DNA of 53,227 nucleotides from a candidate division WOR-1 bacterium RIFOXYB2_FULL_37_13 (GTDB taxonomy: Bacteria; Margulisbacteria; WOR-1; XYC2-FULL-46-14; XYC2-FULL-37-10), in NCBI GenBank assembly GCA_001771535.1, contig MEUB01000027.1, forward strand, positions 84,601-137,827, read 5' to 3'. Position 1 is the stretch's first letter, and every line of letters starts with the position of its first letter. The translations under genes were made by a program, and so were the position numbers. A model generated the notes under the pieces. That model was not told where the DNA came from. It saw nothing but the letters and a program-made list of their open reading frames with translations, and made no database searches. Below, piece by piece: positions 1,634 to 34,274 of this stretch.

Positions 1634-2923
1634 TCAATCCTTTAAAATTAACTTTTTCATAAAACTTATATCAAAAGGTGTTTTAATGTAATCATTGAAA
1701 ACAGAAGAATCAATTTTTATTTTGTTTTTCAAGATATATAGCAACTCTGCCTCATTCTTTGCTACAGGCACACGCGAATCAGAACCATCAAATGGATTAA
1801 CTAAACGATACTTAGATCCCCAGGCATAATCATTAACTGACGGCTCATAAACTATATAATTTATCCCGCAATAGATCGATTCCAATATCGATGTTGAAGA
1901 ATTTCCAATAACAAGGCTTGATTGATTAAACAAATTCTTTAAAGGCTTTATTTCTATTTTATAAAAATCATTATCTATATATCCTTTGTACCATTCTGTA
2001 TTTTCAGATGGATGAAGTTTAAGTGTAACATATTTTACACCAAGTTTTTCAAGTGTTTTTTGTATTGAGTAAAGATAAAGGATTGAAATCCCTCTATCAA
2101 ACAAATTAACCCCCATTGAATCACAATGCCAAGAAATTGATGGATATCCTAAAACCAAAATGTTTCCAAGATCAAATTTCAAATCTTTCAGGTTAAATTC
2201 TTTATAATACGGATGGCCAGAAACAAATACTTTCTTACTATCTACTCCAGCATTAATATAATTTTCTTTTATTTTTTCTCCCCAAACCACAAGATAATTA
2301 GATCTATTATCATTAATATTTTCATAATGCTGAGTCAATCCATGCAACAGAATAAAGCTTGGCCTATTCATTTTTCGAAATATTTTTATATTCCAATTTT
2401 CAAAGAACGGCATATCCGCGTGCACACATAAAGCCTTGAAATCATTCTTAATATAAAAGCGTTTTAAAATCTCTTCAGCCTCAATGATTTTATTTAAGAA
2501 TTCTGGGCCAATAATTTCATTGAAGTTTTTTGCCATCAAAAAACTTTTTAGATAATTTATTATTTTCTTTATATGTTTTGGAGGATATCCTCTGACAAAT
2601 TGTCTAATCCATGGCGGCAAAAAGACGTTAAATCCTATATTTTCAAGTTCATCATTATATGTAAAATAAGCAAATGAAAGTAGTTTAGGTTTATCATTTA
2701 CAGGGTATGCCTTAAAAAGACCTTTGCAATATCTTAAAATATCCTTTAGATTTTCTTTAATTGTTTCAATCTTTGGTTCATTTTTGCATTCTTCTGAAGG
2801 GCCTTTGAATTGATATCCATAGTGATAAATTCTACCGTCAAGCTGCCACTTTAGCGCATCAAGCAACTCTTTATCTATCGGGTAGTTTTCTTTTAAATAA
2901 TCAATTAAGTAAAAGTTTTTCAT
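1634..2923 (-). CDS. Putative GT-B-fold surface-polysaccharide transferase
   Basis: This 429-residue protein is not one I recognise by name. Its C-terminal half looks like the second Rossmann domain of GT-B or CDP-glycerol transferase-type enzymes: [12 protein letters not shown] near 300, then [26 protein letters not shown] near 340, where a Gly-Asn-Ser-Ser/Thr donor loop precedes a Glu. The middle part ([12 protein letters not shown], then [15 protein letters not shown] and VFVSGHPYY) fits the acceptor-to-donor domain transition of that fold. There is no signal peptide or membrane segment. Its ATG at 2923 lies inside the upstream DegT-like gene (23-base overlap), so the two are probably translated together. 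A transferase of a sugar or phosphoglycerol unit is the best guess. Confidence 0.6.
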
Positions 2924-3899
2924 TGTTTTCGAGAAATTTTAATAATAAATCTATTTTATCCATCATCCCATGAATAGGCACAGCTAAACATTTTTCATAT
3001 TTAGGTTTAAAAGGATTGCCTGACCAATTAAAATGATAAATTTCTGTTTCAATATGATGTTTTAACATCAGCAATTTTTTAAATTCTAACATGATATCTA
3101 TAGAAAACCCTTTTAATATAGGTGCAATGCCAGGACCAGCACCATTTTCAATTGCTTTCTTCATCCATAAAGGCCAAGAGCCTGATAATTTATTGTTCAG
3201 TAATTTTTCCGCGTTTTTCTGCCTTAGTAATTTTTCAATTTCAATAGCTTTTAAAATATTGTTATTGATAACCCATCTTTCCAAATCGGATATAATAGCC
3301 TTTATATTTTCTTTAAAAAAATAATTAAAAATCTTAGATTTTTGTTTTTTTTCTATTGTTTCCATTATTCGTAGATTTTTTTCAGATTCAATGTCTGGCG
3401 TAAAGCTGAGCAGCTTGCTATTATGTAAAGCAAGCCCTCCGCCTGAAAGCCCTAAAATTTTGGAAAAACTTACTATTTGGATAGAATTATACTTCAATTC
3501 ATTTTTTGCATTAAAATGGGCTGAATCAACCATATCTTGAATAATGATAGTTTTTTTTGACCAATCCATTATCTGTTTTATCGCCTCATCTATAAATGGC
3601 CATCCCCACTGTTCATACAGCAATACTGCATCAACATGAATTTTGTGGCTTAACACTTCATACATTGGAATTGGAGTACAAACCCTTGCAATAGCATTAA
3701 TTACGCATTGTGAACTCCATTCTGGGAAAGCAACGCGGTTCGACCTGCCTAGTCCAATATGATGCAATGAGTAACTTATGGCTTGCCGTCCACTTGGGAA
3801 AACGTACCTTAACTTAAATGGCTTATCACCTTCAATCAGTAGTTGATTTAAAGGCTGATTTCTCCATAATCCTATTTTTTTCTTATCACTATTTCCCAT
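2901..3899 (-). CDS. Divergent DegT/DnrJ-like PLP-dependent protein
   Basis: This 332-residue protein keeps a thin DegT aminotransferase skeleton. [16 protein letters not shown] near residue 35 stands where sugar aminotransferases have [19 protein letters not shown] near 130 supplies the Asp that pairs with the PLP pyridine nitrogen, and [15 protein letters not shown] near 150 supplies the Schiff-base Lys followed by the Gly-rich turn. The canonical TTGEGG sequence is missing and the N-terminal segment is replaced. It could still be a sugar transaminase or a PLP dehydratase of the same fold, but the substrate loop does not match the four ordinary DegT proteins in this window. It begins 10 bases after the methyltransferase at 3910. 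Confidence 0.6.
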
Positions 3900-3909
3900 T
3901 TTAAATTGC

Positions 3910-4632
3910 TCAATCAGTTTTTATTATAAGAATATCTTCACGAGTATTGCCAAAAGGTAAGTTTTCTGGTTGGGAAAGAACGTAAGTAGAATATCCTTCT
4001 TTTTGATATTTTCTTACTATTTCTGCAACAAAATCATCATCAAATTCAACTAATTCATCATCTTTATCAAAACAACCTTGATTCCCAGAAGTTTCACTAT
4101 TGACCAAGGCTTGCCATTCTTTTAAGAATTTTCTTCCACGATTAGAATTAATAAAACGATTTTTCAAGGATGAATTAGGAATATCTCCGAATAATGCCTT
4201 CCCTCCAGGAGAAAGAAGTCGCAAAGATTTATTGATAAATTCAAACACTTCATCGCGATTTTTAAGATAATGAAGTACGCTGTAACATAAGATTTTACTA
4301 TATACATCATCAATGGCAACATCCAAAAAATTGCCAGGTATAAAATTAATATTTTCACCTTTGGGGAATCTTCTTTTTAATAGTTCAATACATGAAATAT
4401 GATCAATTCCATCAATAGTATCAACTGCAAACGAAAGAGGAATTAATAAATTGCCTGCTCCACATCCTATTTCAAGTAAAGAATCATTAGATTTAAGATT
4501 AAGTTTTTTAATCACATCTGCAACAATATTTTTTTCTGATTCTTCCTGAACTTTAAGTCTTCCTGATATTTCTGTATAATTACTAAAGTTTTCTGCGATT
4601 CTTCCATAACTTTCAAAAGATTTTCTGCTCAT
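3910..4632 (-). CDS. Class I SAM-dependent methyltransferase
   Basis: This is a 240-residue soluble methyltransferase. Motif I is [15 protein letters not shown] near residue 55, an acidic residue follows at the end of strand 2 (GIDHIS), and the post-II block [24 protein letters not shown] is followed by [13 protein letters not shown]. This is the Methyltransf_11/25 type, which methylates O, N or C of small molecules. The gene starts one base after the FemAB-like gene and closes the run that includes ACP and KAS III. A role in methylating the acyl group or the sugar made by that run is an inference from position only. Confidence 0.85.
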
Positions 4633-4633
4633 T

Positions 4634-5731
4634 TTATTCCCCTCTTTGTTGTAATACTAGTGAGTTAAGATTGCTTAATATCTTTTCATGCATAAATTGC
4701 TTATCATAATATTTAATACCTCGGTGTACTGTAATTGTTTTCCCTCCAAATCCCCTTTTAAACAATGAAATATCAATATCCTTTTGATTTGGGTTGTCAT
4801 ATAGCTGTGAACTATATTGTTGCAAACCTATTTCATAACAAACAAAACCATTGTTTTTTAACCATTTTACTGTCTCCCATTGAATAATATGCGAAATTGG
4901 TACATCAACTTTTGCATCAGGATCATCAGAAGCAGAACCATAATATGCTGCATTTTTATAAGTAATTATTAATGAGAAACCGATATATATATTATTGTAC
5001 TTTAATCCGCATAATACTCCATTTCCATCAAGAATCCATTTATACATCATATCAAATGTTACAAGAGGTCTAGTTATTCTTCCCGATGCTTTGTGATGAA
5101 GAAGTCGATAAAAATTAAATATATCTTTTGTAATATTATTTTTATCAAAGATATCAACCACATAAGCTTTTTCACCCCTTTTTATGTCATATTTGTGACC
5201 TTTTCGCACATCACGATTTAAGGTTTCATAAGATGAGGTTAAATCTAGAATTTGAGTATTAAGTGAATGATTAAAATAACCATATTTCATTAAATAATTA
5301 AAACTTAACTGCTTTAGACTCTGTGGATAATTTGCTAATGGCACAAAGCTAAAAGCTGCGCTTTTTACATTATTCTTACAAGCAAAATCATCAACAAAAG
5401 AAAAGATTAGCTTCCGTACCTTTTCTTTTCTTTCGTCAGAAATATCGGTTTTTAATGCGGGGTGAACCTCATATCCCCCCATAATAGAATTTGAAAAAAT
5501 ATTTATTTCATGATCATTGCAATTAACTTCTTCCAGAAGTAAAGGACAAATTGCCATAATTCCAACATCATCATAAACCATGAAAGATAATGATCGAACA
5601 TTGTTTTCATGGTGGCATGCAATGGAAAATTCTAAATAATCCGTTGTATGCCAAAACCAGGCATCATCAGATTTTAAACAAAATTCATTCCAATCTTGGT
5701 ATTTATCTTTTGTTAATGGAACTATTTTCAT
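4634..5731 (-). CDS. FemAB/CelD-like (Acetyltransf_6 type) acyl or aminoacyl transferase
   Basis: This 365-residue protein has the layout of tandem-GNAT FemAB-like proteins. The N-terminal part begins MKIVPLTKDKYQDWNEF and contains the Trp/His-rich WFWHTTDYL. The mid segment RDVRKGHKYDIKRGEK near residue 195 matches the conserved basic stretch of FemX/CelD proteins. The C-terminal GNAT-like part has GVLCGLKYNNIYIGFSLI and the YYGSASDDPD block that precedes the substrate loop. Family members transfer aminoacyl groups from tRNA or acyl groups from carrier thioesters to amines. It overlaps the GNAT gene by 4 bases (ATGA), so it probably works with the ACP/KAS III products. A peptidoglycan cross-bridge role is possible but unsupported by neighbours. 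Confidence 0.7.
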   Translation of the reverse strand: MKIVPLTKDKYQDWNEFCLKSDDAWFWHTTDYLEFSIACHHENNVRSLSFMVYDDVGIMAICPLLLEEVNCNDHEINIFSNSIMGGYEVHPALKTDISDERKEKVRKLIFSFVDDFACKNNVKSAAFSFVPLANYPQSLKQLSFNYLMKYGYFNHSLNTQILDLTSSYETLNRDVRKGHKYDIKRGEKAYVVDIFDKNNITKDIFNFYRLLHHKASGRITRPLVTFDMMYKWILDGNGVLCGLKYNNIYIGFSLIITYKNAAYYGSASDDPDAKVDVPISHIIQWETVKWLKNNGFVCYEIGLQQYSSQLYDNPNQKDIDISLFKRGFGGKTITVHRGIKYYDKQFMHEKILSNLNSLVLQQRGE

Positions 5732-6246
5732 TCGTTTTTGTAATATTCCTCAGCTAAGATGCTAACAATTACACTATCCCAATATTTCCCATCCCAAAAT
5801 ACAGTTTGTCTCAAAACTCCTTCTTGTTTAAATCCACATTTTAAGGCCAGTTTTATTCCTCCTTGATTAAATGCCCATGCTTCCCCCCACAAACGGTTTA
5901 AATTGTACTCATCAAAACACTTTTTCTTTAAAAAATCATACACTCCTATCCCTAAAGCAACATCTGTGACTGAATTTGTTTTCTTCCCTAAATAATAAGA
6001 AATTTCTGCAGAACGATCCTTCCAGTTAATATGAGTTAACCCACATATTCCAACAGGCGCATCGTCCATCAAAACTATAAACATGTCATCTAATTTTGAA
6101 ATGGAAATATGCTCAAACCAACGCATTTGATTTAACATATTCAAAAGCCTATATTCCCTAAAAAGCCTTCTTAACTGTTCTTCGTTACGCCAATCCCGCA
6201 GTAAAGCCAAATCTTCCTTTTCAACTTGTCGAAAGTTTGTTTTCAC
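5728..6246 (-). CDS. GNAT N-acyltransferase, PseH/RimJ-like
   Basis: This single-domain GNAT protein has 172 residues. FRQVEKEDLALLRDWRNEEQ at the N-terminus matches the WRN motif of RimJ/RimL and PseH-type sugar N-acetyltransferases. ISYYLGKKTNSVTDVALGIG covers the acyl-CoA pyrophosphate loop, and NQGGIKLALKCGFKQEGVLR is the classical motif B helix. PseH acetylates the 4-amino group of UDP-4-amino-4,6-dideoxy-AltNAc, the product of PseC, and pseB/pseC homologues lie 9 kb upstream. Because ACP, KAS III and a reductase sit immediately upstream, a longer acyl donor is also possible. The start is GTG at 6246, chosen because GGAGG lies 8 bases ahead of it. Confidence 0.8.
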   Translation of the reverse strand: MKTNFRQVEKEDLALLRDWRNEEQLRRLFREYRLLNMLNQMRWFEHISISKLDDMFIVLMDDAPVGICGLTHINWKDRSAEISYYLGKKTNSVTDVALGIGVYDFLKKKCFDEYNLNRLWGEAWAFNQGGIKLALKCGFKQEGVLRQTVFWDGKYWDSVIVSILAEEYYKNE

Positions 6247-6266
6247 TTTTTATTCCTCCTAATAAA

Positions 6267-6950
6267 TTATATCCCCCCATCAATATTAATTGATGCGCCA
6301 TTTACATATTGTGATTTAATTAAAAATTCTATTGCATTAAAAATATCTATTGATTTTCCTAAGGTTTTTGACGGGACTTGTTGCAATAATTTTTTTTGCA
6401 TCCCTTCATTCAGTTGATTGTATAATCCAACTTCAAAATGCCCTAAAATCAATATATTTGATGTAATATTAAATCTAGCATATTCTTTAGCTAAAACATT
6501 CGACATTCCTATCAATCCCATCTTACTTGCAGAGTATGCAATTGTCCCTGTATCCCCATCCACAGCACCACGGGAAGAAATATGAATTATTCTTCCCCAT
6601 CTTTCCTGAATCATCTTAGAAAGTAATGCTTGTGTAAGAAGAAAATTTCCCTTTAAATTAACTCCCATTATTCGATCCCAATCAGATTCAGAACAATTTG
6701 CAGCCAAAGAATCAATCTTTAAGGCAGCAAAATGAATTAGTGTTACTTTAGAAATTTTATTCTTCCATTTATCAATAAAAATTTTAATATCTGACGGGCT
6801 TTCTAAATTTAATTGCTCATAAGTTAAATGCTCATCCGACGAAATCTGAGGCTTTGTTTTATTGTAAATGCCTATTACTTGATCAATATCTAAAAGAAAA
6901 GGCAATATTTCTCGACCAATTCCTCCTGAAGCACCAGTTAAAATAATCAT
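6267..6950 (-). CDS. Short-chain dehydrogenase/reductase, FabG-like
   Basis: This 227-residue classical SDR starts MIILTGASGGIGREI (nucleotide motif TGxxxGIG). Later comes HISSRGAVDGDTGTIAYSAS, followed by Lys, giving the Ser-Tyr-Lys triad intact, and it ends SINIDGGI like FabG. Its place directly after KAS III and ACP points to reduction of a 3-ketoacyl-ACP to the 3-hydroxyacyl form in the cytoplasm. Direct action on a sugar ketone is the alternative. I place the start at ATG 6950, which overlaps the KAS III stop as ATGA; a GTG at 6965 is in frame but has no better ribosome site. Confidence 0.85.
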   Translation of the reverse strand: MIILTGASGGIGREILPFLLDIDQVIGIYNKTKPQISSDEHLTYEQLNLESPSDIKIFIDKWKNKISKVTLIHFAALKIDSLAANCSESDWDRIMGVNLKGNFLLTQALLSKMIQERWGRIIHISSRGAVDGDTGTIAYSASKMGLIGMSNVLAKEYARFNITSNILILGHFEVGLYNQLNEGMQKKLLQQVPSKTLGKSIDIFNAIEFLIKSQYVNGASINIDGGI

Positions 6951-7924
6951 ATATTCATTCCCCACTCAATCAAGCAGGCTCCCCAGGAAAGACCCACTCC
7001 AAAACCAACAAGCATAACCAATTTTTTTTTCTTTAAATATCCTTGTTCTGACGCATCCTTTAAAGCTATTGGGATTGATGCAGAAACGGTGTTCCCTACA
7101 TCCTTGTAATTAATAAATACCTTTTCTGACGAAAGATTTAAACGGCGTATTATATTATCTATCACTAACTTACTTGCCTGATGAAAAACAAATAAATCAA
7201 TTTCTTCAATACTCTTTTCTGCCTTTTTCAGTAATTCATTAATACACCTTGGAACCACATCCATGGTAAACATAAAAACATTAGAACCATTCATAAATAA
7301 TTTGCCTTCTTTTTCTCCGTCTTTAGCTTTTCGCATCCCACTTGATCGAACAATCAGATCACTGTAACCAGATCCATCTGTACCCATTTCAAATGGCCCC
7401 AAGGTATTCCTTTCGCCAACAGCCAAAAGTACAGCAGAAGCCCCATCACTAAACAATGGACGACATGTACGATCCGATTTATCAATATATTTAGTATAAG
7501 TCTCGCTACAAATTAATAAGCCTTTCTTAGCAATTTTTGATTCAATCAAAGATCCCCCAAGTGCCAAACCATAAATAAAACCCGAACATCCAAGATTGAC
7601 ATCAAAAGCAGCACATTCCTTTTTAATCCCTAGACGATCCTGCAAAATACAGGCTGAAGTTGGCAAAGCATAATCTGGAGATTGTGTGACTAAAATAAGA
7701 AAATCAATATCTTTTCTTATTCCATCATTTGTAATTATTTTTTTACCTGCAAGCTCAGCCATATCGGTAGCAGTTTGACCAGGCTCTGAAATATGACGAA
7801 CAAAAACTCCTGTTTTCTTTTCAATTTCTTCAATACGCCAATCAGGATTATCGTTTTTAAGTACCTGCCCATCCTCTGTTTGAGGTGGAAGATAATATTC
7901 TATTGCCTTTATTTCTACCTTCAT
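6947..7924 (-). CDS. 3-oxoacyl-ACP synthase III (KAS III/FabH-like)
   Basis: This 325-residue ketoacyl synthase III carries the full catalytic triad: Cys113 in NLGCSGFIYGL, His249 in FVFHQASKLVIDN and Asn279 in YKDVGNTVSASIPIAL, close to C112/H244/N274 of E. coli FabH. The family condenses an acyl-CoA starter with malonyl-ACP. Here it is flanked by a dedicated ACP (20 bases upstream) and an SDR (overlapping downstream) inside a sugar locus, so it more likely makes a short 3-oxoacyl group for decorating a glycan than housekeeping fatty acids. No FabF, FabZ or malonyltransferase gene is present. As I recall, KAS III and ACP genes also occur in Pseudomonas flagellin-glycosylation islands, a useful parallel. 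Confidence 0.9.
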   Translation of the reverse strand: MKVEIKAIEYYLPPQTEDGQVLKNDNPDWRIEEIEKKTGVFVRHISEPGQTATDMAELAGKKIITNDGIRKDIDFLILVTQSPDYALPTSACILQDRLGIKKECAAFDVNLGCSGFIYGLALGGSLIESKIAKKGLLICSETYTKYIDKSDRTCRPLFSDGASAVLLAVGERNTLGPFEMGTDGSGYSDLIVRSSGMRKAKDGEKEGKLFMNGSNVFMFTMDVVPRCINELLKKAEKSIEEIDLFVFHQASKLVIDNIIRRLNLSSEKVFINYKDVGNTVSASIPIALKDASEQGYLKKKKLVMLVGFGVGLSWGACLIEWGMNI

Positions 7925-7944
7925 TATTTTTTACCAACAAACAA

Positions 7945-8187
7945 TTAAACTAAAGAATTATCTTTTAGTAATTGAATAATCTTATTAACTGAATCAGCAC
8001 TAGACATTTCCCTTATATTTGCGACCTTACCACCAAACCTTTTATCTAAAGCTACTAAAATGCTAAGATGTCCCAAAGAATCCCATTCTTCAACATTTTT
8101 AACTGAGCTATCAAAAGTTATCTTACCATCGCCCACATTTAATGCTTCTTGAATAATTTTTAACATTTCATTTTCTTTATTTCCCAT
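7945..8187 (-). CDS. Acyl carrier protein
   Basis: This is an 80-residue acyl carrier protein with the phosphopantetheine attachment site at Ser37 in EEWDSLGHLSIL, followed by the usual helix II. The N-terminal MGNKENEMLKIIQEAL corresponds to helix I. It resembles stand-alone ACPs of specialised clusters rather than AcpP, which has the DSLDTVEL signature; here it reads DSLGHLSI. It lies between KAS III (downstream, 20-base gap) and a methyltransferase (upstream, 23-base gap), so all three are probably made together. It would be charged by a phosphopantetheinyl transferase encoded elsewhere. Its likely job is to carry the acyl group built by KAS III and the SDR. Confidence 0.92.
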   Translation of the reverse strand: MGNKENEMLKIIQEALNVGDGKITFDSSVKNVEEWDSLGHLSILVALDKRFGGKVANIREMSSADSVNKIIQLLKDNSLV

Positions 8188-8210
8188 TGTTTTCTATCCT
8201 CCTCTTTTAA

Positions 8211-8936
8211 TTAATAATTATAAGCAATATAGACATCTGTATACCACAACACTAATCCAAATTTTTCGGTTATCTGTACACAGCCTTTTGCTTGCAAATT
8301 TCTCAATAATGGAATATGCTTCATCATTTCTTTTGGCAATGGCCATTCTTCATGCGCAACACGTTCAACATGTTTAAAGTTTCGTTGTGCAATGCTTTTT
8401 ATCTTATCTACATTTGAAAAAGATATAATTGGGAAAAATAAGCGCCCACCTGGGGTTAAATAATTGGAAGCTTCTTCAATTACTTGAACTACTAAAGATG
8501 ATCCGTCTAAACCAGAATTACATGGCACATTGGCAAACCAAGGAGAAATCTTTGCAATTTCATCAGATATACCAGAAACATCATCCACAATATAATCAAA
8601 CTTTTCCCCTAACCAAGGATTAAATAAAGATCCAGTTTTAGCTACAATAGGACATTTGTATTTGCTAGCATTTTCTAACGTACAAACAACAGCTGCTTCA
8701 CTTAGATCTGAAGCATAGAGTAATTCCTTAACTAAGCCTACTTGTTGCAAGGCAATTCCCATTACCCCACATCCGCATCCTAGGTCAAGCATTTTTTCCG
8801 GTTTATTGATTTTTTCTAGCACAGCTTTAAATAAAACTTTAGTAGTTCCAGTAGGGGTAAACACTCCTTCATCTATTTTCAAAGAAATCTCTTTTTTCTC
8901 ATCTATTGCAAATTTATAAAATGTTTGTTCATTCAT
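8211..8936 (-). CDS. Class I methyltransferase of the HemK/'MTS' type without the NPPY motif
   Basis: This 241-residue protein has a strong SAM motif I (MLDLGCGCGVMGIAL near residue 57) and YASDLSEAAVVCTLENAS as motif II, both as in PrmC/HemK and small-domain methyltransferases. Where those enzymes have NPPY, this one reads FDYIVDDVSGI, so it should not act on amide or exocyclic amino nitrogens by that mechanism. LTPGGRLFFPII follows as usual. The C-terminal 70 residues are not recognised. It sits 23 bases upstream of the ACP and 2 bases after a PseI-like synthase, bridging the acyl and nonulosonate modules. Methylation of the carrier-bound acyl group or of the sugar is plausible. Confidence 0.75.
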   Translation of the reverse strand: MNEQTFYKFAIDEKKEISLKIDEGVFTPTGTTKVLFKAVLEKINKPEKMLDLGCGCGVMGIALQQVGLVKELLYASDLSEAAVVCTLENASKYKCPIVAKTGSLFNPWLGEKFDYIVDDVSGISDEIAKISPWFANVPCNSGLDGSSLVVQVIEEASNYLTPGGRLFFPIISFSNVDKIKSIAQRNFKHVERVAHEEWPLPKEMMKHIPLLRNLQAKGCVQITEKFGLVLWYTDVYIAYNY

Positions 8937-8938
8937 TT

Positions 8939-9979
8939 TTATTTCTCAATCATTTTCCAAGTTATCCACGCATCAGGATCAATCTGCCGCTTAGCTTTTT
9001 TGGAAATAACAGATTGCAAATATTTTGGTTTAATACCAAACCCAGGCCGCTTAATTATTAACATATTTTCATCAATCTTAGACCCCTTTGGAATTTTCAT
9101 TTTAGCATGGATACTGCGCCTACCAATACAGAAGTTTTCCAACTCATGCGTTCTTGGCCCAGATTTATGCCCATTGCCCATTGCCATTTCTATATCGCGT
9201 ATTTGGCTGACCATTTCTTTTAATTCCTTTGGCTCTATAGCAAAAGGGTGATCTGGACCTTTCATGCCTTTATCTAGAGTAAAATGTTTTTCAATTATTT
9301 TAGCTCCCATTGCAACGGCTGCCACAGGAACATGAAAGCCTAAAGTATGATCAGATAAACCCACTATAACATTAAATGCGTGCTTAATTGTTTGCATAGC
9401 TGATAAATTAATACTTTCAGGAGATGCGGGATAAGCAGAAACACACTGCAAAAAAACAATATTATGATTCCTCACATTCAAACACTCTAAATAAGCTTCA
9501 TTTATTTCTTCCATCGTAGCCAGCCCAGTAGAGATAATCATTGGCTTCTTTTTCTTCGCAATATACTTAATTAATGGCAAATCAACTAGTTCAAAAGAGG
9601 AAATTTTATATAGATCTACATATGGTTCCAATTCATCTACTGCCTTTTGGTCAAAAGGTGTAGCAAAAAAAATAATTCTTTTTTTGTCACAATATTTTTT
9701 CAGCTCAGGTATCCAGATCCGTGGCGTTTCGATTTCTTTTATCATTTCCCAAAGATTGTTTTTGTAATGAGAATGTTTTGGAACATTTTTTGAATACAGT
9801 TTTTCAGCTGAATATATTTGAAATTTAACCGCATCAACCCCTGCTTTTGCAGCTTCATCGATCAAGCGCTTGGCTGTTTTTAGGCTTCTATTATGATTTG
9901 ATCCAATCTCTGCAATGATAAAGCATGGCTGACCATCTCCTATACAATGATTACCGATTTTGATTTTATGGTTTCTCAT
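8939..9979 (-). CDS. pseI: Nonulosonic acid synthase, pseudaminic acid synthase-like
   Basis: This 346-residue NeuB-family enzyme condenses phosphoenolpyruvate with a 6-carbon amino sugar to give a 9-carbon acid. The TIM-barrel domain has IIAEIGSNHNRS, AVKFQ (PEP-binding Lys), YKISSFELVDLPL (Lys and Glu), GLSDHT, then the metal-site His residues in IIEKHFTLD and GPDH. The C-terminal antifreeze/SAF domain has GRRSIHAKMKIPKG with the Arg that reaches the neighbouring active site. The KISSFE reading is closer to PseI (KIASFE) than to NeuB or LegI. It starts directly after the class III aminotransferase with no gap. With pseB and pseC upstream, a Pse-type product is likely. Confidence 0.88.
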   Translation of the reverse strand: MRNHKIKIGNHCIGDGQPCFIIAEIGSNHNRSLKTAKRLIDEAAKAGVDAVKFQIYSAEKLYSKNVPKHSHYKNNLWEMIKEIETPRIWIPELKKYCDKKRIIFFATPFDQKAVDELEPYVDLYKISSFELVDLPLIKYIAKKKKPMIISTGLATMEEINEAYLECLNVRNHNIVFLQCVSAYPASPESINLSAMQTIKHAFNVIVGLSDHTLGFHVPVAAVAMGAKIIEKHFTLDKGMKGPDHPFAIEPKELKEMVSQIRDIEMAMGNGHKSGPRTHELENFCIGRRSIHAKMKIPKGSKIDENMLIIKRPGFGIKPKYLQSVISKKAKRQIDPDAWITWKMIEK

Positions 9980-11290
9980 TTACTCTAACCTTTTAAACCC
10001 AGCATGACAGACCAGTCCTTTTAAATCAGAAACAACTGAATCATTTTTCAATGATTCAGAAATAAAAGCAAGGGATTCATCTACTGCCATCAAATAACTA
10101 TCAACACATTGTTCTGTATGAGAGAAAGAAGCATAAAAAGCATTAGTAGCTAGGAATCCTTTCTCAAGCATTAGTTGTGTAAATAGAGTTTTTAGATATA
10201 AATGATTATCATAATTGAAAGAAAAATGTCCCAAAGGATCTATTCCAGACACCGATATTTTCAAATGATATTTGTTTGCTAAATCACTCCACCCTTTCTT
10301 TATCTTACTTCCAACAATACTTAAATATCTTGGAACATCATTAGCTTTCATTTTCTTAATTGCAGCAATAGCAGCTGTTGGACCTATACGATCTGTCCAA
10401 TATGTGCTACTAATGAATGTTTCTTGTGCTGCCTGCATTACATCACTTTTGCCAATAATAGCAGCCATAGGAAATCCATTACTTATCCCTTTAGCAAAGA
10501 CTGCAATATCAGGGGAAATCCCATATTTTAAATGAGCTCCGCCAACATTCAATCTCCATCCAGAACTCACTTCATCACATATCATTACTATTTTCAACTC
10601 ATCAGTAACTTTTCTTATTGTTTCAAGAAATCCAGGTTTTGGCTCATAATTTCGTATCGTCTCAACAACTACAGCCGCAATCTTGCCTTTGTTCTTATTG
10701 ATTAAATCCAGAAACTGTTCAGTATTATTGTAAATAAAAGGTTTTGCCGTACCAAGTAATCCTCTAGGCACTCCCTTAGAAAATAGACCTTGCAAAAGAT
10801 GCCCATCAAGTGCTTGGTCATCCGCTAAATTAGCTGACAAATACCAATCGTGCCATCCATGATAGCCACAAAACAAAATTATATCTTTTCCAGTAGCCGC
10901 TCTGGCAATACGCACTGCAATGCTCATTGCCTCTCCGCCACAGCGAGCGTATCTAACCATTTCCGCCCAAGGATGCAATTCGCATAATAGTTCTGCTAAT
11001 TCGACTTCCTCTGGAGCATTGAGAGTACACATGTTGCCATTTGTTACTGCGCCATCTACTGCTAGATTGACATCATCATCTGAATATCCTAAAATACAAG
11101 ACCCAATGCCCATATAGCTCATATCAATATACTTCTTGTTATCCAAATCCCATACTTCGCACCCTTTTGCTTTTGAATAATAAGCGGGCCAAAGATCGGG
11201 TAAAAACATTTCCGGTCTTTTCGAAAAAAGTTGTGTCCCACCAGGAATTATTTTTTTTGCTTTCTTATATAACTCTTGCGAAATCCCCAT
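9980..11290 (-). CDS. Class III PLP aminotransferase, glutamate-1-semialdehyde aminomutase-like
   Basis: This 436-residue protein has the fold-type I class III layout: GGTQLFSKRPEMF at the N-terminus, CGGEAMSIAVRIARAATGKD, YHGWHDWY, CDEVSSGWR with the PLP-contacting Asp, and AVFAKGISNGFPMAAIIG with the Schiff-base Lys. These match glutamate-1-semialdehyde aminomutase homologues, but a second copy inside a nonulosonate operon beside PseI, SpsF and an aldo/keto reductase suggests transfer of an amino group on a sugar instead of tetrapyrrole synthesis. No other hem gene is near. It begins at ATG 11290, nine bases after the aldo/keto reductase. The acceptor sugar and position are unknown. Confidence 0.85.
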   Translation of the reverse strand: MGISQELYKKAKKIIPGGTQLFSKRPEMFLPDLWPAYYSKAKGCEVWDLDNKKYIDMSYMGIGSCILGYSDDDVNLAVDGAVTNGNMCTLNAPEEVELAELLCELHPWAEMVRYARCGGEAMSIAVRIARAATGKDIILFCGYHGWHDWYLSANLADDQALDGHLLQGLFSKGVPRGLLGTAKPFIYNNTEQFLDLINKNKGKIAAVVVETIRNYEPKPGFLETIRKVTDELKIVMICDEVSSGWRLNVGGAHLKYGISPDIAVFAKGISNGFPMAAIIGKSDVMQAAQETFISSTYWTDRIGPTAAIAAIKKMKANDVPRYLSIVGSKIKKGWSDLANKYHLKISVSGIDPLGHFSFNYDNHLYLKTLFTQLMLEKGFLATNAFYASFSHTEQCVDSYLMAVDESLAFISESLKNDSVVSDLKGLVCHAGFKRLE

Positions 11291-11299
11291 AAAGTAAAG

Positions 11300-12199
11300 T
11301 TACTCCTTATTTAATTCTAAACTATGCTTCAATTTATATATATCTATAAGATAATTATATACCATATTAATCTTTTCTTCTTGAAAAACTGAAAGGCTTG
11401 ACTGTATTGCACAGATTTTTGAAAAATCTTCAAGAAAACAATTGATTTCATTGAAATTATCTAGACCATCAACACCAAATACAACCTTATCCACAAATTG
11501 ATTAAGAAAAACAAAATTAGCACATAAAGATGCGATAGAAATGTTTTCTTGTTTAGAAAGTATATTCATTTTAATGATCTTATCCTTCAACATCAGTAAA
11601 TTATCTTTTAAGTCTCCTGGATTCATAAATACTATCCCTTGTAAAAATATTGATCTTACATAAATTTCAATGCCTTTACTTTGTAAGATCGGGAAATATG
11701 GTTCAAACCTACGGTCAAAAATATTGTAAGGAACTTGGATTTGATCTAATTCAATCCCTTGCTGGAAAAGAGCTTCAAGCTCATCTGGGGAATAAATGGA
11801 AAACCCTATTTTTTTTGCCTTGCCTTCTGATTTCATCTCTTTCAATATTTCCCATATTTCAGGATTATTTGCATAGTACCGAAACCCATGAATCAATAAT
11901 CCATAGAATGAATCTACACCTAATTCAACTAAAGAAGAAATCAAAAGCGGCTTAATCTTTAATCTCTCAACATTGCCTATCTTAGATATGATATTGAATT
12001 TTTTATTATATTTTTTTATAAATTTTCCTATAACGTTTTCGCTAGCCCCATACATAGAGGCAGTATCAAGAGTCTCAACTCCAAGCCTAAAAGCAGCTGC
12101 CAATATTTCAAAAACTTCTGTTTGAGGGACCTGACCTCTTTGATTATTAACTCCATAATCAAATCCGAATTGAGCCGTTCCTAAAACAATTTTATTCAT
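11300..12199 (-). CDS. Aldo/keto reductase family protein
   Basis: This 299-residue TIM-barrel oxidoreductase keeps all four catalytic residues of the superfamily: Asp in LDTASMYG, Tyr in the same motif, Lys in IISKIG and His in GLLIHG. It probably uses NADPH to reduce a ketone or aldehyde, or to oxidise the corresponding alcohol, in the cytoplasm. The start is set at ATG 12199, which overlaps the cytidylyltransferase stop as ATGA; a second ATG at 12205 is two codons earlier. Its setting between an SpsF-type cytidylyltransferase and a class III aminotransferase suggests that it makes or removes the keto group that the aminotransferase uses, though this is inference. Confidence 0.88.
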   Translation of the reverse strand: MNKIVLGTAQFGFDYGVNNQRGQVPQTEVFEILAAAFRLGVETLDTASMYGASENVIGKFIKKYNKKFNIISKIGNVERLKIKPLLISSLVELGVDSFYGLLIHGFRYYANNPEIWEILKEMKSEGKAKKIGFSIYSPDELEALFQQGIELDQIQVPYNIFDRRFEPYFPILQSKGIEIYVRSIFLQGIVFMNPGDLKDNLLMLKDKIIKMNILSKQENISIASLCANFVFLNQFVDKVVFGVDGLDNFNEINCFLEDFSKICAIQSSLSVFQEEKINMVYNYLIDIYKLKHSLELNKE

Positions 12200-12951
12200 T
12201 CCCATATTCGTCCATGCCCCCAGTCAACGCCAATTTCAGAAACCGGTTTGCGAATTATTTCATTTTTATCCCAATAATCTACTATATCTGAAATCTTTAT
12301 TAAATTTTTATATCCTTGAAGGTCTTTATACACTTTCCTGCAAAACACTAAATCTTCAGGATAATCAACCGTAATTCTTATGTCTGATCTTCTAAGTTTA
12401 TTTTCTGGAAGACGGATATTTAATTTAAATTGTTCTTTATTATCAAAAATATAGGCTGTTAATAGTTCCTTATGTCGATCAGAAGCATTCTTATAAGATT
12501 TTCTTAAGGCAGAAGTATTAATAATATGATATCCAGCACCATCCGGAAGGTGCGAAAAAAACGACAAATCAAATCTATCTTCTACATGCTGCTCATACAG
12601 TTTATCAATATGATCATAAAACAAAAATGGGGATTCGGTTGAATTTATAAACATAATTTCAACATTAAATTTATCTACTGCTTTTAACGTCCGGCCTAAC
12701 ATATCATTTTCTTCGCCAAAAACATACTTCCAATCATTTTTTTCTGCCAATTTAGCAAAAACATGGTTTTCTTTTCCATTTGCAATGGCTAAACACACCG
12801 AATCAATATGTTGAGATTGTTTAAGATAACTTACTAAATATTCTAAAATTGTTATTCTATTTTCAATGTCTAACAATTGCATTGGTTTCCCGTATAAACG
12901 TGTTCCTCCAACACGACAAGGTAAAATAGCTGTAAATTTTTTCTTATTCAA
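12196..12951 (-). CDS. SpsF-type cytidylyltransferase (probable CMP-nonulosonate synthetase)
   Basis: This 251-residue protein belongs to the cytidylyltransferase superfamily that includes NeuA, KdsB and SpsF. The N-terminal loop is ILPCRVGGTRLYGKPMQLL, a variant of the ARxxSxRLPGK signature, and IRITVDYPEDLVFCRKVY matches the conserved R-x-TVD-x-x-D metal segment of SpsF. It would activate a nonulosonic acid with CTP, here most likely the product of PseI. The start is TTG at 12951, supported by GGAG 7 bases upstream and by the absence of a nearby ATG. The gene overlaps the aldo/keto reductase by 4 bases. A second, NeuA/LegF-type enzyme is at 19117. Confidence 0.8.
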   Translation of the reverse strand: MNKKKFTAILPCRVGGTRLYGKPMQLLDIENRITILEYLVSYLKQSQHIDSVCLAIANGKENHVFAKLAEKNDWKYVFGEENDMLGRTLKAVDKFNVEIMFINSTESPFLFYDHIDKLYEQHVEDRFDLSFFSHLPDGAGYHIINTSALRKSYKNASDRHKELLTAYIFDNKEQFKLNIRLPENKLRRSDIRITVDYPEDLVFCRKVYKDLQGYKNLIKISDIVDYWDKNEIIRKPVSEIGVDWGHGRIWE

Positions 12952-12976: not shown

Positions 12977-13765
12977 TTAGAATAATCCTTTCGATATTCC
13001 ACCATCTATTTGAATTGTAGTTCCAGTTATTCCTGATGCCAGTTCGGAACACAAAAAAGCAACTAGAGCACCTAATTCTTCTGGCTTTTGATATCTTCCC
13101 AAAGGCATTGTTTTAATTGCCTCTTTTTCTATGTCTTCAATGGTTACACCTTTTTCTTTTGCCGCTACCTTCATTAATTCAATTGCACGATCAGTTTTAA
13201 ATGCGCCTGGACAAATATTATTGATTGTAATATTATTTTTTATTAATTCTTTCGACAGAGTTTTTGCCAAACTTACTACCCCAGTTCGAAATACGTTTGA
13301 TAAAACAAGTGTTTCGGCCGGCTCCTTGACTACCAATGAAGTTATATTGATAATTCTGCCCCATTTGTTTTTTTTCATATAAGGAATAACGCCTCTAGTC
13401 AGTCGAACTACATACATTAAAACATCGTTAAAAGCTTTCTCCCAATCTTTATCACTAAAATCAAAAAAAGTTCCAGGCAGTGGACCTCCTGAATTATTAA
13501 CTAATATATCTATCTTACCAAATGTATCTATGGTTTCTTTAATTATTTTTTCATTATCATCTTTTGATGACATATCAACCTCTAAGGGCAATACCTTAAC
13601 TCCAAGAGTTTCTATTAAGTGCGCAGTTTCTGCTAGAGATTGCTCACCATTAGCACAAAGAACTATGTGAACTCCTTCTTTAGCCAAGCTAATCGCACAA
13701 CCTTTACCAAGCCCTTTACTAGATCCTCCAATTACTGCAACTTTATCTTTTAGTCCAAAATTCAT
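12977..13765 (-). CDS. SDR-family protein lacking the catalytic Tyr-Lys pair
   Basis: This 262-residue protein is plainly a short-chain dehydrogenase by fold. It has AVIGGSSKGLGKGCAISLA at the N-terminus, VNNSGGP near 90, IINITSL near 140 and the FabG-like end SGITGTTIQIDGGI. However, the YxxxK active-site element is replaced by SNVFR (Ser156 and Arg160, with Ser143 kept). This matches, as I recall, an atypical BKR-like SDR subgroup without the full catalytic tetrad. It may bind nucleotide without normal redox chemistry, or use another base. It shares an ATGA overlap with the degenerate NeuB paralogue at 13762, which links the two unusual proteins. Confidence 0.85.
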   Translation of the reverse strand: MNFGLKDKVAVIGGSSKGLGKGCAISLAKEGVHIVLCANGEQSLAETAHLIETLGVKVLPLEVDMSSKDDNEKIIKETIDTFGKIDILVNNSGGPLPGTFFDFSDKDWEKAFNDVLMYVVRLTRGVIPYMKKNKWGRIINITSLVVKEPAETLVLSNVFRTGVVSLAKTLSKELIKNNITINNICPGAFKTDRAIELMKVAAKEKGVTIEDIEKEAIKTMPLGRYQKPEELGALVAFLCSELASGITGTTIQIDGGISKGLF

Positions 13766-14766
13766 AACTTCTCCTTTAAATCACTAAGATTAATTTGTTC
13801 ATCGGGCATGATAGTGCGATTAGTAATTTTACCAATTACCATTTCATATTTTGAAGGATCAATACCTGCTCCAGGCCTTTTAAATTCAATATCTTCTCTG
13901 CTTATAACATTATTCGAGGCAATAACTCTTGAGGCGACAATGCTTCTTCTCATTATTGATCTATCAATGTTTTCTCCAGGAGCCAATATTTTATTTTTTA
14001 CTTTGATGCTTTCTTTCATTTCTTTTGCAAATATTATCGCTTTTTTCATTTCATCTGGCTCGAGACAAACCTGCCAATCCGGGCCTTTTTCAGCCTTAGA
14101 AATAGCAATGTGCTTAGTCACAATATCAGCGCCAGCCGCAACTGCGGCCACAGGCATCCAAGCAAATGGAGTATGGTCTATAAAGCCAACAGGTACTTGG
14201 TATTTATTTTTAAGAACATTTATATAGCCCAAAGAGGTATGCCTTACTTGAACGCCCTCATCTCCACTTGCCATTGTATGCTGGCCATGTAAAAGAGCAA
14301 AATTACATCTTCCATTTTTTGAAATTCTATTTACAGCCCAATCAATTTCTTTTTCATCCGCCATTAATGTGCTAAGGCAAAAGAAAAGACCACTATTAGC
14401 CACAGCATCAAGAATGTCAGGATTGTTTATATCTGAAGCATTTATGTTAAATCCAAAACATCCTGCATTTACAAGCAGATCAATAATTTTACAGCTTAAA
14501 GGCGCTGCAATAAAATTTATTTCTTTGCTTTTAGCATATGCAACTAATTTTTTAATTTGAAGATCGGTGAATTCTCTATCTAAATAAGTTTTGAAATTAG
14601 GATTGTCTCTTACATAAAAATCATTTGCTCTGGCTAATTGAAATTCAATCGCATCAGCACCTGCAAAACAAGCAGCATCTATCATAGAAAGCGCTTTATC
14701 AAAGCTTCCAAGATTTGCTTGCCCCTCTTCAATTACAAAAAATAAATCATCTTTATATTGATTCAT
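13762..14766 (-). CDS. Degenerate NeuB-family paralogue
   Basis: This 334-residue protein aligns along its whole length with nonulosonate synthases, including the C-terminal SAF-like domain (RRSIVASRVI, then EFKRPGAGIDP). Key positions differ: the PEP-binding Lys of KFQ is Glu41 (IEFQ), the KISS Lys is Asn107 (FNINASD), the expected STPFD reads AAPLS, and the second metal His in GPDH is Trp231 (GPDW). The first metal His (TKH, His219) and the Asp-His of IDHT are kept. Ordinary PEP condensation therefore seems unlikely. It overlaps pseC by one base (TAATG) and the atypical SDR by four. It could be an aldolase of different specificity or a subunit. Confidence 0.85.
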   Translation of the reverse strand: MNQYKDDLFFVIEEGQANLGSFDKALSMIDAACFAGADAIEFQLARANDFYVRDNPNFKTYLDREFTDLQIKKLVAYAKSKEINFIAAPLSCKIIDLLVNAGCFGFNINASDINNPDILDAVANSGLFFCLSTLMADEKEIDWAVNRISKNGRCNFALLHGQHTMASGDEGVQVRHTSLGYINVLKNKYQVPVGFIDHTPFAWMPVAAVAAGADIVTKHIAISKAEKGPDWQVCLEPDEMKKAIIFAKEMKESIKVKNKILAPGENIDRSIMRRSIVASRVIASNNVISREDIEFKRPGAGIDPSKYEMVIGKITNRTIMPDEQINLSDLKEKL

Positions 14767-15899
14767 TACGCAACTACCTTTCTCATAATCTCAATAACTT
14801 TGTCAACAGCGTTATCCGTCATTTTTGGATAAAGCGGCAATGTTATAGTCCTATCATAATAGTCCTCAGCTTTAGGACACAAATGATCTTTATAACCTAA
14901 ATTTTTATAATAAGGCTGATAATAAACAGGTATGTAATGCACATTAACGCCTATTCCCTCTTCACGTAGTTTTTTGAAAATAGCCTTTCTATCTCTTTTT
15001 ACTCTGATATAATATAAATGCCAACTAGATTTTACATCTTGTTTTTCAACTGGCAAGATAATATCTTCTAAGCCATCAAATTCTTCGTTATATTTTTTTA
15101 CTATCTCTCTTCTTCTTTCTATGAATTGCCCTAGTTTTTTAAGTTGACTAATTCCCAAAGCACACTGAAAATCGGTTATTCTATAGTTAAATCCCAAAAA
15201 TTGCATTTCATAATACCAATCACCTTCATCACTGTTTATAATTTTATTTGGATCTCTTGTTATTCCATGGGTTCTAAACATCAATAATCTTTTATAATAA
15301 TTTTCATTGTTGGTTAAAATCATACCCCCTTCACCAGTTGTGATATGTTTCACCGCATGAAAGCTTAAGACAGTCATATCAGAATATTTACAAGCGCCAA
15401 TTTTAGAATCATTATATTCCGCACCCAAAGCATGGCAGGCATCTTCAATAATAATCAAATTATGTTTCTTCGCTATATCATGAATTTCTTCTAAATCACA
15501 GGGATGGCCAGCAAAATGGACAGGAATGATTGCTTTTGTTTTCGTCGTAATTTTTTTTGTAATTTCATTAGGGTCAATATTAATTGTATCCTCTTCAATA
15601 TCTGCAAAAACAGGTTTTCCACCACAATATAAAACACAATTTGCTGAAGCAACAAAAGTAATTGGAGAGGTAATAACTTCATCTCCATGCTTAATTCCAG
15701 CAACAAAAGCGGCTGCATGAAGAGCCGCAGTCCCGCTACTCATAGCAACTGCATATTTAGTCCCGCAATATCGAGCTGTTTTATTCTCAAATTCTAAAAC
15801 TTTAGACCCTTGGGTCAAATAGTCAGAACGTAAAGAATCCGCAACAATATCAACATCATCATCCAAAATCCATTGTTTAGCATACGGGATATATTTCAT
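14766..15899 (-). CDS. pseC: PseC-like UDP-4-keto-6-deoxy-sugar aminotransferase
   Basis: This 377-residue DegT-family enzyme has AMSSGTAALHAAAFVAG, PVFADIEEDTINIDP, IIEDACHALGAEY with the PLP-pairing Asp, and LSFHAVKHITTGEGGMIL with the Schiff-base Lys. The HAVKHITTGEGG reading and direct coupling to a PseB homologue (2-base gap) match PseC, which converts UDP-2-acetamido-2,6-dideoxy-L-arabino-hexos-4-ulose to the 4-amino-L-altrose derivative with glutamate as donor. The length fits the family. The assignment rests on motif and order together; other 4-aminotransferases of this family share most of these motifs. Confidence 0.85.
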   Translation of the reverse strand: MKYIPYAKQWILDDDVDIVADSLRSDYLTQGSKVLEFENKTARYCGTKYAVAMSSGTAALHAAAFVAGIKHGDEVITSPITFVASANCVLYCGGKPVFADIEEDTINIDPNEITKKITTKTKAIIPVHFAGHPCDLEEIHDIAKKHNLIIIEDACHALGAEYNDSKIGACKYSDMTVLSFHAVKHITTGEGGMILTNNENYYKRLLMFRTHGITRDPNKIINSDEGDWYYEMQFLGFNYRITDFQCALGISQLKKLGQFIERRREIVKKYNEEFDGLEDIILPVEKQDVKSSWHLYYIRVKRDRKAIFKKLREEGIGVNVHYIPVYYQPYYKNLGYKDHLCPKAEDYYDRTITLPLYPKMTDNAVDKVIEIMRKVVA

Positions 15900-15901
15900 T
15901 G

Positions 15902-16882
15902 CTATTCTCTTATTATCTCCTCAAGCTGAGGAGCTGTAACCCATTTATCATTATTGTCACTGCCATATCTAAATCCATCGGCTACTGGTTTACCCTCTAC
16001 ATGATTACTTCTACCCCACCAATGAAATGCTGGTTGAATTACGTAACAATCATCAAGCTCAATAGTAGTTCTCGCATCATCTTCAGAAATCATTACTTCA
16101 TGAAGTTTTTCTCCCGGCCTTATACCAACAATTTTGATTTTACAATGAGGAGCAACAGCTTTTGCTAAATCCACTATTTTCATGCTTGGAATTTTAGGAA
16201 TAAATATTTCCCCACCAACCATCCTTTCAAAATTTTTAATTACAAATCTTGCCCCCTGATCAATAGTGATCCAAAACCTTGTCATATTAACATCGGTAAT
16301 AGGAAGAACCCCAGTTTTGCTTCTTTCTCTAAAAAATGGGATAACACTTCCGCGACTTCCGATAACATTTCCATACCTAACAACAGAAAATCTTGGTTTT
16401 TCACCACTTGCATAATGGTTTCCAGCAATAAACAACTTATCGGAACAAAGTTTTGTTGCACCATATAAATTTATTGGGTTACAAGCTTTGTCGGTACTAA
16501 GGGCTATAACCTTTTCGATCCCTTGTTCAATAGCACAATCAATAACATTCATAGCACCCATAATATTAGTTCTTATAGCTTCAGAAGGGTTGTACTCCAT
16601 TGCTGGGACTTGCTTTAGCGCCGCAGCGTGAATAATATAATCAACACCATGCATAGCACGATTTAATCTCTCTTTATCTCTTACATCACCGATAAAGAAG
16701 CGAAGCATGCCATATCTATTTGGAGCAAAATGCTCCTGCATTTCAAACTGTTTAAACTCATCTCGACTGTATATAATAACTTTCTTGGGAGTGTGTTCAT
16801 CGCATATGATTTTTGTAAGTTTTTTACCGAGAGATCCTGTGCCCCCCGTAATTAGTATTACCTTATTATCAAAAACATCCAT
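15902..16882 (-). CDS. pseB: UDP-GlcNAc 4,6-dehydratase, inverting (PseB-like)
   Basis: This 326-residue soluble extended SDR starts the pseudaminic-acid route. ILITGGTGSLGKK binds nucleotide, SRDEFKQFEM follows as in PseB, and LSTDKACNPINLYGATK holds Thr130, Asp131, Lys132, Tyr140 and Lys144. The Tyr in YGATK marks the inverting PseB/FlaA1-short type, in contrast to the Met of the retaining type found here at 23562. It dehydrates UDP-GlcNAc at C4/C6 and inverts C5. The gene lies two bases ahead of pseC and 14 bases after a GT-B-like gene. Start ATG 16882. Confidence 0.92.
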   Translation of the reverse strand: MDVFDNKVILITGGTGSLGKKLTKIICDEHTPKKVIIYSRDEFKQFEMQEHFAPNRYGMLRFFIGDVRDKERLNRAMHGVDYIIHAAALKQVPAMEYNPSEAIRTNIMGAMNVIDCAIEQGIEKVIALSTDKACNPINLYGATKLCSDKLFIAGNHYASGEKPRFSVVRYGNVIGSRGSVIPFFRERSKTGVLPITDVNMTRFWITIDQGARFVIKNFERMVGGEIFIPKIPSMKIVDLAKAVAPHCKIKIVGIRPGEKLHEVMISEDDARTTIELDDCYVIQPAFHWWGRSNHVEGKPVADGFRYGSDNNDKWVTAPQLEEIIRE

Positions 16883-33455: not shown

Positions 33456-34274
33456 TTAAATCACATCCGCAAAAGTTTTTTCCATTCTTACAAAATAAAA
33501 TAATCCACTAATGAAAACAACAATTACTGAAACAGTGCTAATTATAAGTGTTCCCCAATTAGGAGTAACAGTTCCTAAAATACTCCAACGAAACCCATCA
33601 ATTACCCCCGTCATTGGATTCAATGAGTAAAGTAATTTCCATTTCTCAGGAACAACTGAAGAAGAATAAGCAACTGGTGAAATAAACAATCCAGCCTGAA
33701 CCAAAAACGGTAAAACATAATTTACATCTCTAAATTCAACGGTTAAGGCGGAAACCCATAAACCAATTCCTAAAGCTGCGAAAAACGCCAGCAATAGAAA
33801 AAGAGGTAGAAAGACTACATTAATTGTAGGGACTATTCCATACCAAACCATTAATCCAATAAGAATGATAAATGCGATACCAAAATCAACAATTCCTGAA
33901 ATTACCGAACTAGTTGGGATAATTAGGCGTGGAAAATAAATTTTTGTAATAAGTGCTGATTTTGCGACCACCGAATTACCGGCAGAACTCATAGAATTTG
34001 AAAAAAATTGCCATGGTAGCAATGCTGTGAATATTAAAATAGGGTAAGGAACTCCATCTGATGGAAGTTTTGCCAACCTGCCAAATATAAGTGAAAATAC
34101 AATCATGGAAAATATTGGCTGGATTACGACCCACGCAACACCAATGACTGTCTGTTTATATCTTGCTAATATATCTCTTAAGGCTAAGAACCAAAAAAGC
34201 TCTCTATATTGCCATAATTCCTTTAAATCAATGCGAACAAATCCATGCTTTCTTTTAATTACCTTAATGCTCAA
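33456..34274 (-). CDS. wzm: Wzm-type ABC-2 polysaccharide exporter permease
   Basis: This 272-residue membrane protein has the ABC-2 export pattern: an amphipathic N-terminus (KELWQYRELFWFLALRDIL with RYKQTVIGVAW), then about six membrane segments (for example QPIFSMIVFSLIFGRLAKL, IVDFGIAFIILIGLMVWYG, VFLPLFLLLAFFAALGIGLW and LIISTVSVIVVFISGLFYF). It forms the inner-membrane channel with Wzt. The start is TTG at 34274, chosen because AAGGAG lies 8 bases upstream and no ATG lies nearby in frame. It follows the DegT gene at 34287 by 12 bases. Confidence 0.93.
   Translation of the reverse strand: MSIKVIKRKHGFVRIDLKELWQYRELFWFLALRDILARYKQTVIGVAWVVIQPIFSMIVFSLIFGRLAKLPSDGVPYPILIFTALLPWQFFSNSMSSAGNSVVAKSALITKIYFPRLIIPTSSVISGIVDFGIAFIILIGLMVWYGIVPTINVVFLPLFLLLAFFAALGIGLWVSALTVEFRDVNYVLPFLVQAGLFISPVAYSSSVVPEKWKLLYSLNPMTGVIDGFRWSILGTVTPNWGTLIISTVSVIVVFISGLFYFVRMEKTFADVI

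Follow-up and report, generated by a model that had tools for sequence, protein, structure and literature searches.

A run of five genes in a 53,227-nucleotide stretch of the candidate division WOR-1 bacterium RIFOXYB2_FULL_37_13 (contig MEUB01000027.1; the whole stretch is hereafter the window) is probably the acyl-donor cassette of a pseudaminic-acid-type pathway, which would acylate the 4-amino group (future N-7) of the sugar. The five genes code for a methyltransferase (MT1), an acyl carrier protein (ACP), a 3-ketoacyl-ACP synthase III (KAS III), a short-chain dehydrogenase/reductase (SDR) and a GCN5-related N-acetyltransferase (GNAT) resembling PseH. The first four, MT1-ACP-KASIII-SDR (8936-6267), are referred to below as the quartet. 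All seven open reading frames of the cassette region follow closely on one another on the minus strand (8936-3910, intergenic spacing of -19 to +23 bp), and neuB2 (9979-8939), coding for a NeuB/PseI-type nonulosonate synthase, ends 2 bp before the start of MT1 (Table 1).

Coordinates and residues confirmed what the original prediction had read in these letters, seven genes in a tight run after a PseI-like gene with the catalytic residues of the ACP, the KAS III and the SDR intact. The KAS III carries the Cys-His-Asn triad together with the ACP_syn_III domains PF08541 and PF08545, the SDR has a TGxxxGIG motif at residue 10, and W-D-S is invariant across six ACP orthologs. Since a separate housekeeping ACP and FabH are encoded elsewhere in the genome (1.79 Mb, 71 contigs, 97% complete), both on contig C35, the ACP and KAS III of the window are dedicated ones; the housekeeping FabH is only 35% identical to this KAS III.

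To find the quartet elsewhere, MT1 was searched for among relatives of the window and then among relatives of the matches, phylum assignments being the kinship labels of the search tool. Matches with 43-67% identity were found in G005, a genome of the same order, and in five genomes of other phyla (G357, G490, G515, G604 and G726), and the ACP, KAS III and SDR genes adjoin MT1 in five of these six MT1-bearing genomes. The genes are arranged as MT1-ACP-KASIII-SDR in G005, G357 and G726 and as KASIII-SDR-MT1-ACP in G490 and G604; the end of a short contig in G515 carries MT1 and a distant ACP. At 40% identity or less, MT1-like proteins stand alone. One clade (support 0.99), apart from the FabH group, unites the quartet KAS IIIs of the window, G005, G490 and G357, and the KAS III of G604 groups at low support with one from the vioA locus of Burkholderia glumae. 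A KAS III search of viral contigs gave no matches, an MT1 search of plasmids returned distant HemK-like proteins only, and an ACP search of plasmids returned only two unrelated MBOAT loci.

All six complete quartets found belong to surface-glycan loci, and four have PseB/PseC in their vicinity, at a distance of about 9 kb in G005 and about 5.5 kb in G357. By a rough hand estimate, a random quartet would fall within 10 kb of the sole PseB/PseC pair of a 1.7-Mb genome with a chance of ~1.2%, and three of the five other quartets would do so with a chance of ~2e-5. These settings speak against the quartet being a mere passenger that feeds a lipid or a small secreted metabolite, a reading that we regard as very improbable even though KAS III-ACP pairs do occur in non-glycan settings, such as a Deinococcus plasmid with adenylation-domain genes.

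In G726, PseB-PseC-PseI-MT1-ACP-KASIII-SDR-GNAT share one strand, and the spacing between the genes ranges from -47 to +60 bp. The PseI of G726, at 492 bits, passes the cut-off of 340; compared with the window, MT1 is 46% identical, the ACP 55%, the KAS III 63%, the SDR 62% and the GNAT 66%. Downstream of the GNAT follow genes for a 592-aa protein, NeuB1, a further short-chain dehydrogenase (SDRb), a nucleotidyltransferase, HisH, HisF and PseA, and then a PseG-like gene recognized by eye from its sequence. Given five other genomes with the quartet, and a run of all five genes, GNAT included, directly after pseI in another phylum, the arrangement exceeds chance, and the same set in the same place in so distant a bacterium argues that the cassette is a real unit. 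The original prediction had made its case depend on the run being conserved with nonulosonate genes elsewhere; that holds for MT1-ACP-KASIII-SDR-GNAT. Membership of the last two genes, which code for a FemAB-like protein and a second methyltransferase (MT2), is not supported.

Two further observations concern these operons. In G005, the cassette SDR occurs a second time, beside another GNAT and a NeuB3/NeuC pair (locus L042, 17530-18947), as if the reductase had been reused for a second sugar. A protein of 580-590 aa is encoded in the pseudaminic acid (Pse) operons of both G726 (L116, 8645-10423) and G005 (L042, 7176-8930), the two copies matching each other at 486 bits; no Pfam family matches the G726 copy, and the protein is possibly a nonulosonate transferase.

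The best family match of the GNAT is PseH (TIGR03585), both in the window (73.7 bits) and in G726 (78.0 bits). The quartet separates it from NeuB/PseI in these two genomes, whereas the two genes are adjacent in loci L089, L091, L104 and L107. GNATs of this kind are encoded beside NeuB in L089 and L091, from class relatives lacking the acyl genes, and also in Sinorhizobium meliloti Rm41 and Paenibacillus, where the GNAT gene precedes NeuB and a PseG-like gene lies upstream; the quartet therefore looks as though it was inserted between NeuB and PseH. A protein other than the GNAT of the window follows the quartet in G357, where it is itself a GNAT, and in G490; the two are distantly alike. An apparent absence of the CoA pyrophosphate loop was considered as evidence for an ACP donor and dropped: an alignment by eye, set from the following conserved Phe, places G-I-G at the loop, so the alignment gives no information on the donor. 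A single-sequence structure model of the GNAT had a mean confidence (pLDDT) of 38 and was not used.

We propose that the private ACP would carry a malonyl unit, which the KAS III would condense with an acyl-CoA (probably acetyl-CoA), and that the SDR would reduce the resulting 3-oxoacyl-ACP to 3-hydroxyacyl-ACP, in the simplest case 3-hydroxybutyryl-ACP, a chain that MT1 would perhaps methylate. The PseH-like GNAT would use this acyl-ACP to place the acyl group, instead of the acetyl group of PseH, on the 4-amino group of the UDP-sugar made by PseB and PseC. As this amino group becomes N-7, condensation of the freed sugar with phosphoenolpyruvate by NeuB2 would give a 7-N-acyl nonulosonic acid destined for an exported surface polysaccharide. 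The idea that a dedicated ACP supplies a short 3-hydroxyacyl group to an amino group of a nonulosonic acid is supported by the quartet and GNAT lying after pseI in G726 and from the likeness of the GNAT to PseH. The genome encodes no flagellin (no PF00669 match, with matches obtained in control genomes); flagellin was thus ruled out as the glycan target, an exported surface polysaccharide is most likely the product, and the comparison with flagellin islands made in the original prediction does not apply.

Several points weigh against assigning the cassette to a pseudaminic acid pathway. The GNAT falls under the PseH cut-off of 93.1 in both the window and G726, and G005 has no PseH-like GNAT beside its quartet. 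NeuB2 is below the cut-offs of both PseI (320 bits against 340) and NnaB (364 against 400), and the best PseG match in the 97%-complete genome reaches 28.8 bits against a cut-off of 153.55, so that pseudaminic acid itself may not be the sugar of the window. The quartets of G490 and G604 lie in glycan loci without PseB/PseC nearby, showing that the quartet also serves other glycan loci and not nonulosonate loci alone.

The loci of G490 and G604 also favor an alternative in which the quartet acylates another amino sugar in the same polysaccharide (viosamine-like or Qui/Fuc3N-type), adjacency to pseI reflects operon packing, and MT1 O-methylates the sugar as VioM does. The epimerase and DegT aminotransferase genes that follow the quartet in G005 point the same way, as does the viosamine island of Pseudomonas syringae pv. 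tabaci, the closest parallel with experimental support, in which the same enzyme types serve viosamine. That island, vioS-acp-vioR-vioB-vioM, with counterparts in P. aeruginosa PAK, leads to N-(3-hydroxybutyryl)-2-O-methylviosamine; the roles of vioA, vioB, vioR, vioM and vioT are backed by mutants and mass spectrometry, and without vioM the modified viosamine carries one methyl group less (PMC3927599). The window shares its gene content, with an ACP, a KAS III, a reductase and an N-acyltransferase in one cluster, all of them dedicated, plus a methyltransferase, and the viosamine product carries N-3-hydroxybutyryl on a 4-amino sugar, as is predicted for the window. The island, however, acts on dTDP-viosamine on flagellin, whereas the window is predicted to act on a nonulosonic acid precursor in a genome without flagellin, and its acyltransferase is a PseH-like GNAT, unlike VioB, which is of the hexapeptide type. 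VioM is assigned to sugar O-methylation. We consider the other-sugar alternative unlikely, given that in both G726 and the window the quartet is flanked immediately by the NeuB/PseI gene on one side and the PseH-like GNAT on the other, and that MT1 and the ACP are neighbors in every one of the six quartets, suggesting that MT1 acts on the acyl chain.

MT1 belongs to the HemK/PrmC group by sequence, but V-D-D-V-S/A-G, at a motif position set by eye, replaces NPPY, making methylation of an amide or ring nitrogen unlikely. From its constant place beside the ACP alone, we infer that MT1 may carry out C- or O-methylation of the acyl chain. We tentatively extend the acyl-donor reading further, at somewhat less than even confidence: the cassette would define a PseH branch fed by a dedicated carrier protein instead of a CoA ester, MT1 would modify the chain to give a methyl-branched or methoxy 3-hydroxyacyl group, an undescribed substituent, and the quartet would be an acyl module transferable across phyla.

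The original prediction had also placed the FemAB-like protein and MT2 in the cassette, with the former, beside the GNAT, as a candidate for moving the acyl chain; in this version it would use the acyl-ACP, and both methyltransferases would act in the same route. The FemAB-like gene does overlap the GNAT gene by 4 bp, and its product has a GNAT-related acyltransferase fold. Against this, neither the five other quartet genomes nor G515 yielded a FemAB ortholog, the only match in G005 being a partial one of 19%. A scan of genome contigs returned only three FemAB loci. Relatives of the protein were found in the isolate Bpl_23 (apparently the same contig as in G059), the haloarchaeon Halorussus aquaticus and Candidatus Giovannonibacteria. 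These relatives are always encoded near a class III aminotransferase, a nucleotidyltransferase and NeuB, in H. aquaticus and Giovannonibacteria also near PseB/PseC-type proteins, and never with an ACP, KAS III or MT1. On this neighborhood, we ruled out an ACP-dependent role for the FemAB-like protein, and the cassette as originally drawn is quite improbable; MT2 likewise shows no conserved link to the cassette.

The FemAB-like protein scores below the cut-off of TIGR04421 (FemAB_IMCC1989; 75.8 against 250 bits). Its predicted structure gave FemX as the top Foldseek match (E 1.3e-11), with low TM-scores and a mean pLDDT of 63, adequate for fold class only. FemX is an aminoacyl-tRNA-dependent transferase; judging from the model, the window protein may aminoacylate an amino group as a separate decoration. 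The combination of a FemX-fold protein, a class III aminotransferase and NeuB occurs at L026 14001-15083, L029 10001-11068 and L024 8934-10022, and in the haloarchaeon, Giovannonibacteria and Bpl_23 loci a tRNA-dependent aminoacylation of nonulosonic acid is possible. The FemAB-like protein and its pyridoxal phosphate (PLP)-fold neighbor (window 2901-5731, minus strand) weakly match TIGR04421 and TIGR04422, both NCBI families named with IMCC1989, which suggests a known, uncharacterized pair.

Table 1. Genes of the cassette region and of the surrounding nonulosonate locus, in window coordinates.
Feature	Position	Strand	Evidence
PLP-fold protein, neighbor	2901..3899	-	TIGR04422 28.6 bits vs cut-off 75, weak
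MT2, generic class I methyltransferase, cassette neighbor	3910..4632	-	PF13649 37 bits
FemAB-like transferase, probably outside acyl cassette	4634..5731	-	TIGR04421 75.8 bits; FemX fold match
PseH-like GNAT, proposed acyltransferase	5728..6246	-	TIGR03585 73.7 bits; G726 ortholog 66% identical, same place
FabG-like SDR, predicted 3-oxoacyl-ACP reductase	6267..6965	-	TIGR01830 154 bits; Ser131-Tyr144-Lys148
KAS III	6947..7924	-	PF08541 and PF08545; Cys113, His248, Asn278
Dedicated ACP	7945..8187	-	Ser37 in DSL motif; TIGR00517 23 bits, weak
MT1, class I methyltransferase, HemK/PrmC type	8211..8936	-	PF05175 49 bits
NeuB2, NeuB/PseI-type nonulosonate synthase	8939..9979	-	PF03102 300 bits
Class III (GSA-like) aminotransferase, backbone	9980..11290	-	PF00202 140 bits
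Aldo/keto reductase, backbone	11300..12205	-	PF00248 116 bits
CTP_transf_3 nucleotidyltransferase (cytidylyltransferase-type), backbone	12196..12951	-	PF02348 42.5 bits
SDRb, short-chain dehydrogenase paired with NeuB1	12977..13765	-	G726 62% identical, same order
NeuB1, divergent NeuB-like synthase	13762..14766	-	PF03102 127 bits; PseI 137 bits; G726 56% identical
PseC, 4-aminotransferase giving the amino group for acylation	14766..15899	-	TIGR03588 526 bits > cut-off 423.5
PseB, UDP-GlcNAc 4,6-dehydratase (inverting)	15902..16882	-	TIGR03589 517 bits > cut-off 407.75
ABC-type polysaccharide exporter	33456-34274, 32206-33453		Read by eye
Wza/Wzc-like proteins	47387-48478, 46464-47369		Read by eye

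Upstream of the cassette lies the nonulosonate backbone (Table 1), and further up a second nonulosonate set codes for NeuC, NeuB3, LegC-like and NeuA/PseF-like proteins and PseA-HisH-HisF, the last three named by eye from their translations. Proteins 47-76% identical to the class III aminotransferase are encoded in 18 other genomes, mostly with PseB/PseC/NeuB. Many of the 16 further loci that were read share PseB, PseC, the nucleotidyltransferase, the aminotransferase and NeuB, plus an aldo/keto reductase or a Gfo/Idh oxidoreductase. None of the 16 has FemAB, ACP, KAS III or MT1, so that the quartet is not universal in such loci; G357 joins this backbone to the quartet as the window does. The aldo/keto reductase and class III aminotransferase (9980-12205, minus strand) accompany PseB, PseC and NeuB in many lineages and might introduce an additional amino group into the sugar. 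The NeuB1-SDRb pair (12977-14766, minus strand) is kept in G726 beside a second, orthodox PseI, giving two synthases per locus.

The chemistry proposed for the cassette is a variant of what is already known, since 3-hydroxybutyryl pseudaminic acids are documented. Pse5Ac7(R3Hb) is made by psb1-6 in Shigella boydii O7 and by psaABCGHF in Acinetobacter baumannii (PMC3726653, PMC9676051, PMC3628348), and 3-hydroxybutyryl Pse occurs in S. meliloti Rm41 (K-antigen) and S. fredii (PMC9037385). These Pse5Ac7(R3Hb) modules likewise join the PseB/PseC pathway to an alternative acyltransferase to give 7-N-3-hydroxybutanoyl pseudaminic acid; they comprise six genes with no ACP or KAS III described, whereas the window adds its own acyl synthesis and a methyltransferase. 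PseH resembles the cassette GNAT in fold family and, among relatives, in adjacency to NeuB/PseI, but a donor other than acetyl-CoA is proposed for the cassette enzyme. In the polar flagellin islands of Aeromonas, pse genes occur together with an ACP and a 3-oxoacyl-ACP reductase in group II, and together with an alpha/keto (as printed) reductase and a class III aminotransferase in group I (PMC7874193). Unlike the window, these islands have no KAS III-MT1 quartet described, and group II, which serves flagellin, also includes LuxE, LuxC and an AMP-dependent synthetase.

A different acyl module, made up of a KAS III, an ACP, a second KAS III, a Rieske protein and an SDR, was seen in G056 and on the B. 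glumae plasmid pBGF3 (loci L043 6624-9870 and L027 7992-12875). On pBGF3, it lies beside flagellin and vioA, and the second KAS III is apparently split into two overlapping frames.

In the literature searched, which was mostly without subscription papers, we found no description of a pse operon, conserved across phyla, that joins a private ACP, KAS III, SDR and MT1 to a PseH-like GNAT. N-3-hydroxybutyryl nonulosonic acids are chemically known in several pathogens and symbionts, with the source of the acyl group usually left open, and a conserved operon with its own ACP, KAS III and reductase beside pseI represents a concrete candidate for the donor route. The quartet also brings to light the MT1 orthologs as a methyltransferase family with a candidate chain-modifying role, and provides a four-gene marker with which acylated surface sugars could be predicted in uncultured phyla.

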